The notes under the pieces were generated by a model. It was not told where the DNA came from and made no database searches. It was given only the letters and a program-made list of their open reading frames with translations. This document shows positions 4,131 to 29,032 of a stretch of 51,386 nt of DNA, one piece after another. The DNA is taken from the NCBI GenBank assembly GCA_015152525.1, contig SUTU01000016.1:1-51386 (forward strand), read 5' to 3'. The stretch is from Cyanobacteria bacterium SIG28 (lineage in GTDB: Bacteria > Cyanobacteriota > Vampirovibrionia > Gastranaerophilales > Gastranaerophilaceae). The position numbers were made by a program, and so were the translations under genes. The first letter of the stretch is position 1, and each line of letters opens with the position of its first letter.

Positions 4131-4231
4131 TGTCCGTTTTGCTCGGAAGTCAAATTTTGTAAGTTGGGCATACTTGCCCAACAACACTAAATCTTAGCGG
4201 TCGGAAGTTTAGAATTTCAAACCGGACGAAA
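4131..4231. repeat. Composite repeat unit A, copy 2, with REP palindrome
   Basis: Starts TGTCCGTTTTGCTCGGAAGT (4131-4150), carries the palindrome at 4163-4182 and ends in CCGGACGAAAAGGGACTTTT. The first 20 bases are identical to 5169-5188. Confidence 0.65.
4163..4182. repeat. REP-like palindrome, copy 1
   Basis: GTTGGGCA, TACT loop, TGCCCAAC: a perfect 8-bp stem. The same hairpin occurs at 5201-5220 and, with one base changed in the loop, at 6211-6230 and, inverted, 6509-6528. Confidence 0.8.
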
Positions 4232-5116: not shown

Positions 5117-5220
5117 TTATCAACTCAACTGTTCTTTCTTCTCACATCGAGTGTTAAAATACATTTATTGTCCGTTTTGCTCGGAAGTGTATTTTTGTAA
5201 GTTGGGCATACTTGCCCAAC
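5117..5220. repeat. Leader-type repeat plus unit A, copy 3, with REP palindrome
   Basis: Leader word (5117-5160), TGTCCGTTTTGCTCGGAAGT (5169-5188) and the palindrome (5201-5220) in the same order as at 4061-4182. The ~35 bases around the palindrome are almost identical to those at 4159-4195. A frame called here (5154-5378, minus) is only repeat sequence. Confidence 0.7.
5201..5220. repeat. REP-like palindrome, copy 2
   Basis: Identical to 4163-4182, including the TACT loop. Confidence 0.8.
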
Positions 5221-6037: not shown

Positions 6038-6210
6038 CTAGAGGATAAAATTCAGTTAGAAGATCTGTCAAGAAGGTTTAATAATCTAAAAAAGTAGATT
6101 AAGTCTGCTCTTTTGCTTTAATTGATTAATATAGTTTACCAGAATAAATCTTTTTGCCATTTCTCATTATTGAAAATGTTTGGTAATTGTCAGTTTTTTC
6201 AGGTTTGTCG

Positions 6211-6230
6211 GTTGGGCATACCTGCCCAAC
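6211..6230. repeat. REP-like palindrome, copy 3, over the RAYT promoter
   Basis: GTTGGGCA, TACC loop, TGCCCAAC, preceded by TTGTCG. The -35 position of the promoter for the downstream transposase (6222-6227 for a 17-bp spacer) falls inside the right arm. Confidence 0.8.
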
Positions 6231-6241
6231 AATTAATTTTA

Positions 6242-6256
6242 TGCTAATATCAATTT
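6242..6256 (+). promoter_or_regulatory. Extended -10 box for leaderless RAYT mRNA
   Basis: TGC followed by TAATAT (6245-6250), then exactly 6 nt to the ATG at 6257, with no ribosome site. Confidence 0.55.
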
Positions 6257-6793
6257 ATGAATTATCGTAGAGCTTTTGTTCCTAATGGATATTTACATAT
6301 TATAATTACTTCTTATGATAGAAAACCAATATTTATTGAGAATATTGATATTTTAAGAACAGCTTTTAAAAACACAAAAACAATTTATGAATTTGAAATA
6401 ATCGCAATATGTGTATTGCCTAATCATATTCATTTAATATTACATCCAAACAATATTGAACAATATCCGCAAATTATTTCTTCTATAAAACATTATTTTT
6501 CAAGAAATGTTGGGCAGGTATGCCCAACCGACAATTTGAAGATTGGTTATAAGAATAAACGAGAGAAAGGAATCTTTCAAAGACGATATTGGGAACATAC
6601 TATCAGAGATGAAAACGAATTAAACAATCATATAAACTATATTCACTATAACCCTGTAAAGCATAAATTAGTTCAAAATGTCAAAGATTGGGAGTATTCT
6701 TCTTTTCATAAGTTTGTTGAAAATAATTTGTATGACAAAAATTGGGGTAATGTTAAAGAAATAGAAAACATTATTAACTTAGATTATGAATAA
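6257..6793 (+). CDS. REP-associated tyrosine transposase (RAYT, IS200/TnpA-like)
   Basis: 178 aa, full length for the family. The HUH nuclease motif is at H57-I-H59 in LPNHIHLILHP, and the family's Tyr motif is in NYIHYNPVKH (Y128 or Y131; Y128 is the better match). RAYTs are single-copy HUH enzymes that bind and cut REP palindromes and are thought to spread them. The matching palindrome lies just upstream (6211-6230), and another copy lies inside the coding sequence at 6509-6528. There it is read in frame as VGQVCPT (residues 85-91), in the variable loop between the HUH and Tyr motifs, so the protein stays open. All catalytic parts are present, so the enzyme may be active. Confidence 0.88.
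   Translation: MNYRRAFVPNGYLHIIITSYDRKPIFIENIDILRTAFKNTKTIYEFEIIAICVLPNHIHLILHPNNIEQYPQIISSIKHYFSRNVGQVCPTDNLKIGYKNKREKGIFQRRYWEHTIRDENELNNHINYIHYNPVKHKLVQNVKDWEYSSFHKFVENNLYDKNWGNVKEIENIINLDYE
6509..6528. repeat. REP-like palindrome, copy 4, inside the RAYT reading frame
   Basis: GTTGGGCA, GGTA loop, TGCCCAAC, followed by CGACAA. It is the reverse complement of 6205-6230 over 26 bases, so the homology extends beyond the stem and the copy is inverted relative to the upstream one. Confidence 0.85.
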
Positions 6794-7205: not shown

Positions 7206-7600
7206 AAAACTTTTAGATGAAAATATAAAAAGTGTATGATGCTTATAAATGCGTCGTAACAAATTATTCTCTGTTAGCATCAACCGAAGTGTTGAAATTC
7301 AGAGCAATTAATAGAAAATGTAGGGTGGAAAATGTTTTAAGTTGGTAGTTTAAAAATAATTTAACGCACATTTCCACCATTAAATTTTTGGTGGGTATGA
7401 ATGTTTAATCATTATATAATTCAATGTTTATCGTATTTCCTACCTTATACAACTTATTGTATCATAGAATGGTGCGTATAAACGCACCCTACTACTACTT
7501 ATAGATTTTAAATGCAATACAGTAAACATACTTCATATTGTATAGTATGTATTTAATTTTAAAATCATTTAATTAAGGTATTTTGCATTCATTATATTTT
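7206..7600. other. Non-coding stretch with one hairpin repeat
   Basis: No gene seen. It contains an exact GGTGCGT/ATAA/ACGCACC hairpin at 7471-7488 followed by CTACTACT, and a TAGGGTGGAAAATG/TTTCCACC pair around 7321-7380 that could be a long-loop relative. Confidence 0.55.
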
Positions 7601-28159: not shown

Positions 28160-29032
28160 TTATTTACAAAGTGGGAACCCAAGCTTTTCACGTTGTTTGA
28201 CGTACAAATTGGCAACAGCGGATGCCATGGTTCGCACTCGATTAATAAAGTTTATTCTTTCATCCTTGCTAATAACACCACGTGCATCTAATAAATTAAA
28301 TGTATGAGAGCATTTAAGCACATAATCATAAGCAGGTAAAACAAGTTCTGCATCAATACAGTTATCAACTTCTTTTTGATAAGCATCAAACAAGCTAAAT
28401 AACCTTTCTGCGTTTGAATGTTCAAAGTTATATTTAGATTGTTCTATCTCATTTTGAAGATAAATATCACCATATTTTAAATTATTATTCCACATTATAT
28501 CAAATACGGATTCTTTATTTTGAATATACATCGCTATACGTTCAAGACCGTAAGTAATCTCCAGCGCTACAGGTTTAACTTCTAAACCGCCAACTTGTTG
28601 GAAGTATGTAAATTGAGTAATTTCCATACCGTCAAGCCAAACTTCCCAACCTACACCGGCAGCACCTAAAGTTGGTGATTCCCAGTTATCCTCAACAAAT
28701 CTTACATCATGTTTAGACAAATCAATACCCATTGCCTCTAAACTCTTTAAATAAAGTTCTTGCGCATTATCCGGTGATGGTTTTAAGATAACCTGATACT
28801 GGAAATAATGTCCCAAGCGGTTCGGATTTTCACCATAACGAGCATCGGTAGGTCGTCTGCAAGGTTCAACCATTGCTGTTGAATAAGGTTCAGGTCCTAA
28901 GGCTCTTAAAAAAGTTGCAGGGTTCATTGTGGAAGCACCCTTTTCAATATCATAAGGTTGTTGAATGATACAACCGTAATCGGACCAGAAACCTGATAAT
29001 TTTAGTATTAAGTCTTGAAAATTTAATGCCAT
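28160..29032 (-). CDS. glyQ: Glycine-tRNA ligase, alpha subunit
   Basis: 290 aa, standard length. The N-terminal [17 protein letters not shown] and the following [24 protein letters not shown] are the class II catalytic core of the bacterial alpha2-beta2 enzyme. It charges tRNA-Gly with GlyS. GlyS is normally directly downstream, but here the downstream genes are permeases behind a terminator, so glyS must be elsewhere. Ribosome site GGA before ATG 29032. Confidence 0.95.

Follow-up and report, generated by a model that had tools for sequence, protein, structure and literature searches.

The RAYT locus of the window (the whole stretch of 51,386 nucleotides that was analysed) is best read, with a probability of roughly 0.6, as a REPtron in which the right-hand REP has its place within the coding sequence of the RAYT and not after its stop codon. 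In the canonical REPtron (Nunvar et al. 2010, PMC2817692), one REP stands on each side of the RAYT, the two being inverted relative to each other. The host belongs to Candidatus Gastranaerophilales and has a genome of 1.89 Mb. Elsewhere this genome has two more full-length RAYTs (L002, L003), besides two that are partial or decayed. The features discussed below are the following:

6257 to 6793, + strand: RAYT / TnpA_REP (Y1 HUH transposase), 178 aa; PF01797 match (E = 2e-12) and structure match to 4er8
6207 to 6230, + strand: upstream REP, made up of a GTCG tag (6207-6210) and a palindrome (6211-6230); inverted partner of the in-gene REP
6509 to 6532, - strand: in-gene REP, made up of a palindrome (6509-6528) and the tag CGAC (6529-6532; GTCG on the - strand); from palindrome and match searches, its 8-bp stem fold and synonymous conservation
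6245 to 6250, + strand: -10-like hexamer TAATAT, at -12 from the ATG, between the upstream REP and the gene; from a scan of 65 RAYTs
5201 to 5220, + strand: relative of the REP with one change and a GTAA tag, within a longer intergenic repeat
4163 to 4182, + strand: relative of the REP with one change and a GTAA tag, within a longer intergenic repeat

Besides its profile match to PF01797, the protein encoded at 6257-6793 keeps an intact HUH motif (H57-x-H59) and an intact tyrosine at the catalytic position (Tyr128, within YIHYNP). The best PDB match of its AlphaFold model (pLDDT 83) is 4er8 (E = 1.9e-13, TM 0.77/0.83), a RAYT bound to a REP hairpin. The HUH-Tyr Y1 transposase fold, nearest to TnpA_REP by both PF01797 and 4er8, comes together with inverted REPs that carry a GTAG-like tetranucleotide (GTCG, GTAG or GTAA across the clade), and both traits place the gene among the RAYTs, which are domesticated bacterial transposases.

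Inside the gene, the REP is complete, tag included. The palindrome GTTGGGCAGGTATGCCCAAC at 6509-6528, inside the open reading frame, is an exact inverted copy of 6211-6230; GTCG precedes the upstream palindrome, CGAC follows the in-gene one, and each copy folds into an 8-bp stem with a 4-nt loop. The preliminary description had reported a 26-bp inverted match to a palindrome at 6205-6230. The inverted match is indeed there, but its length is 27 nt when exact (+251 to +278 of the gene, the 4-base tag included) and 30 nt at 97% when extended (6205-6234 against 6505-6534). The same description had correctly read the segment as VGQVCPT, in a frame that stays open and with both motifs intact. These residues lie between the HUH and Tyr motifs, after the helix 67-86 and before the strand 112-116 of the predicted structure, within its least confident inner stretch; the REP-coded peptide probably occupies a flexible loop at the surface, where it is tolerated. 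The probability that the match arose by chance is practically nil, given the 27 exact nucleotides: the inverted-match score is 27 here versus 7-12 for the gene bodies of RAYTs without an in-gene REP, the reversed pattern has 0 hits in the genome versus 10 for the real one (both counts coming from pattern searches), and the REP's codon set has a probability of about 1e-4 for its residues under the window's codon usage.

The architecture was surveyed in 125 different RAYT genes, by asking where the 120-150 nt upstream of each gene have their best inverted match. For 55 RAYTs, nearly all of them from other clades and with L002 and L003 among them, that match (the upstream REP's inverted partner) falls directly after the stop codon. 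In the window's clade it falls, with few exceptions, within the coding sequence, at the loop (+251 to +285), and an inverted downstream partner is typically missing. No such palindrome follows the RAYT stop codon in the window, so the two-sided flanking of the canonical REPtron is not found there. What the preliminary description had missed is that the usual downstream partner is replaced here by the in-gene copy. When a REP does follow the stop codon in this clade, it often has the same orientation as the upstream one (L053, L061, L113). One gene inside clade B (L118) has a downstream partner and a degenerate in-gene copy, and in L058 the in-gene copy is degenerate, the upstream REP is kept and the downstream partner is absent. 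On the tree, the in-gene state is confined to a few groups (A/B/C, D and E, see below). Among about 40 RAYTs from other families of cyanobacteria it was not seen, in a test that requires an upstream match within 150 nt and would miss cases like those of subclass 2.4 (see below), and this survey leaves in-gene REPs unsupported as a phylum-wide feature of RAYTs. The locus shares with the canonical REPtron (PMC2817692) the RAYT fold and motifs and the inverted pair of GTAG/GTCG-tagged REPs, one of them directly upstream, but the second REP is outside the gene there and inside it here. REPINs and BIMEs are also composed of two REPs in inverted orientation, and arrays or doublets occur in L134 and L092; here, however, some 280 nt separate the two REPs, and the 5' half of the RAYT gene lies between them.

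The window's RAYT clade is supported at 100/98 (100/99 with the loop columns removed), and the in-gene REP is found in nearly all of its complete members (36 genes, taken from MAG assemblies and correlated in sequence). The palindrome is placed at +252 to +261 from the ATG, or at +213 in L019, where there is a deletion further upstream in the gene. Several sequence types occur: type A (VGQVCPT, GTTGGGCA..TGCCCAAC), type B (VGVETPTY, GTTGGGGT..ACCCCAAC) and type C (L061). The alignment of homologues, proposed earlier as a check, finds the segment common to the whole clade, across related gut bacteria, with the same codons, and not with the unrelated codon choice that would have spoken for coincidence. 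The in-gene REP is ancestral to its clade and not a recent one-off insertion in this strain. Comparing the copies in relatives, the other check proposed, shows that the upstream REP is usually of the same type as the in-gene one (most pairs). L061 and L134 are exceptions in which the two types differ, L113 has an additional upstream REP type, and L020, L047 and L053 have no good upstream partner. The type-B genomes G003, G006, G041 and G042 contain only two exact type-B copies, namely the upstream and in-gene pair, so the agreement cannot be explained there by matching to dispersed copies. The concerted change of the pair could nevertheless result from gene conversion and not from selection. 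One contig that carries a Gastranaerophilales-type RAYT and several of its REPs (L056, JAMPCZ010000017.1) is titled Muribaculaceae (Bacteroidota), perhaps because of a horizontal transfer or a binning error.

Two other groups carry in-gene REPs. In clade D (L092, L144, L147, L151) the in-gene REP is GTCGG..CCGAC, read VGLVKPTY or VGLVNPTY, and it may have a common origin with A/B/C (p-AU = 0.60). In clade E (L145, L150) it is GTGGGC..GCCCAC and is read in another frame; this clade is probably separate and would then represent a second origin (p-AU = 0.078). One origin for all in-gene REPs was set aside on the frame and the p-AU value of clade E, which do not amount to a firm rejection.

Judging by the synonymous differences, the in-gene REP is held at the nucleotide level. 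Among the 15 type-A genes these differences amount to 0.10 in the seven REP codons versus 0.30 elsewhere, and the 0.10 comes mostly from one CAA/CAG site; among the nine type-B genes they amount to 0.025 versus 0.35. In both types the REP codons are among the windows with the lowest synonymous difference of the whole gene. The REP codons GGG, ACC and TGC are rare (in the window, GGG makes up 7.8% of Gly codons and ACC 12% of Thr codons) and yet fixed or nearly so. A constraint acting on VGQVCPT as a peptide, to which the conservation of this peptide within type A could be ascribed, is hardly credible in view of these codons and of the other types, which encode VGVETPTY or VGLVKPTY and retain the hairpin.

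The loop is 18-20 residues long in the carriers (25 in L019) versus 17-23 in the RAYTs without a REP. Since these lengths are about equal, a simple insertion that lengthened the protein is not supported for the window's clade. It did occur in L092 (G051:C202:1-2600), a 201-aa RAYT in which this loop contains an in-frame REP doublet, and in L134 (G178:C4:70000-72800), a 199-aa RAYT with a small REP array inside the reading frame, again in this loop. The earlier suggestion that the repeat inserted in a tolerant loop is therefore supported as regards the loop, which is the least certain inner part of the model, varies in length and holds these arrays and doublets. It is not supported as a recent insertion, because the segment is clade-wide, its codons are the same throughout and the loop has not grown in length. 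A more general version of this idea is that a REP once landed in the loop, has no role, and has been kept similar to other REPs by gene conversion or repeated re-insertion. The tolerance of the loop to insertions (L092, L134), the known presence of REPs in unrelated genes (PMC3733652) and the recombination of REPs with each other at junctions speak for this alternative. Yet, it seems unlikely, since the REP is at a fixed place in nearly all complete genes of the clade, its synonymous sites are constrained, the pairs agree even in genomes without other exact copies and the inverted downstream partner is typically missing.

The truncated copies of the gene provide a further line of evidence. Damaged copies break at the in-gene REP more than elsewhere: 7 of the 12 inner breakpoints of truncated copies from the in-gene clades fall in or at the REP (L070, L078, L087, L088, L090, L135, L139; binomial p = 3e-6 for 35 of 534 nt), in a small set whose boundaries come from local alignments and whose counted junctions were chosen after seeing them. 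In L078, one of these copies, both REPs mark the limits of a half-gene. Breaks near the loop were also seen in the L033 group, whose RAYTs have no in-gene REP (L094, L137, L138, L153); a foreign REP sits at the junction in two of these, so REPs may land in this loop quite generally. In G319 (L137, L139), REP variants with a longer inner stretch (TACACTTCA..) were observed at half-RAYT junctions.

For cleavage, which takes place beside the REP, TnpA_REP enzymes require single-stranded DNA with the GTAG tag and the hairpin (PMC8266576). Since the in-gene copy keeps both tag and hairpin, the simplest reading is that it is the right-hand substrate of the RAYT. It would then be a candidate substrate that moved into the gene, and recognition or processing of its hairpin by the RAYT protein, with the upstream REP as the other half of the pair, would be the reason why this hairpin was retained. 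The cis role that we infer would have a cost, as processing at the in-gene REP would split the gene, which fits the half-genes mentioned above.

The preliminary description had also considered the coding copy as the source of the repeats. As an ancestral source of the upstream and dispersed REPs, the coding copy could account for the loop of the carriers not being longer, for type-A REPs being commoner in genomes with a type-A RAYT (8.1 versus 2.2, p = 0.004) and for the 67 nt that the in-gene array of L134 has in common with the intergenic array directly downstream. Nevertheless, REPs tagged in the same way accompany other RAYT clades whose genes contain none, so a coding source is unneeded, and the dispersed 'TACTT' copies in this genome have other flanks and a GTAA tag. 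In several relatives the upstream and in-gene copies are the sole two exact ones of the genome, and we regard such an origin as highly improbable. REP copy number is low in the Gastranaerophilales genomes examined, a point that weighs against the main reading. The longer intergenic repeats around 4163-4182 and 5201-5220 have 'tgtccgttttgctcggaagt' in common, and a further palindrome with a CTAC tag at 7469-7491 of the window (GGTGCGTATAAACGCACCCTAC) is similar to the REPs beside the family RAYTs L027 and L130. At 1501-1650 of L038 (G000:C26, REP at 28515) a RAYT locus survives as a remnant, in which the upstream REP and roughly 20 nt from the start of the gene are followed by a pair of REPs from another class.

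Of the 65 Gastranaerophilales RAYTs that were scanned, most have a -10-like hexamer at exactly -12 from the ATG, and the upstream REP occupies the place of the -35 box. This suggests that RAYT transcripts are leaderless and start after the upstream REP, which would probably not be part of the mRNA. Control at the RNA level was also considered: the in-gene copy in the mRNA would pair with the upstream copy (30 nt complementary), or fold alone and be bound by the RAYT, and the gene would limit its own translation. The region 6195-6560 does fold far better than its shuffles (z = -7.7). Yet, the leaderless transcript suggested by the -10-like box weakens the duplex of the two copies, strong as it is in silico, and the upstream and downstream copies of canonical RAYTs could pair as well; such a control is very improbable.

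The bare phenomenon of a REP inside a tnpAREP gene is already known: REPs that keep the frame between the HuH and Y motifs are typical of TnpAY1 subclass 2.4 and present in some members of subclass 2.8, according to Quentin et al. 2018 (PMC6006769). The window's gene resembles subclass 2.4, as described there, in its in-frame REP between these motifs. However, the Y motif reads YIHYNP in the window's gene and clade but YIxNNP in subclass 2.4, whose variable insertion is located between beta3 and alphaC, whereas here the strand 57-64 is directly followed by the helix 67-86 and the REP residues come after it (alphaC:beta4 side). Moreover, the in-gene REPs of subclass 2.4 are additional to flanking ones, while here the in-gene REP replaces the inverted downstream partner. 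Relative to the accessible text of that paper, the different loop, the replacement of the 3' partner, the co-change of the pair, the DNA-level constraint and the breakpoints are new. Intragenic REPs and Rickettsia palindromic elements (PMC3733652) are likewise short palindromes in frame in protein genes, but they occur in unrelated genes and at varying sites, whereas the host gene here is the presumed cognate transposase and the single site is conserved in the clade.

These results bear on the question of how RAYT enzymes and REPs stay matched over long times. It seems rather improbable, though conceivable, that a transposase carrying its own target site in its coding sequence is a maintained design, in which enzyme and one site would be inseparable and excess activity would cut the enzyme's own gene, so that the system would limit itself and the specificity between enzyme and repeat would be locked. 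A clade in which one REP is locked in the gene, changes together with its partner and is constrained as DNA provides a natural test, in which RAYT types and REP pairs could be swapped in a cleavage assay, and one short stretch separates selection on the DNA site from selection on the peptide.
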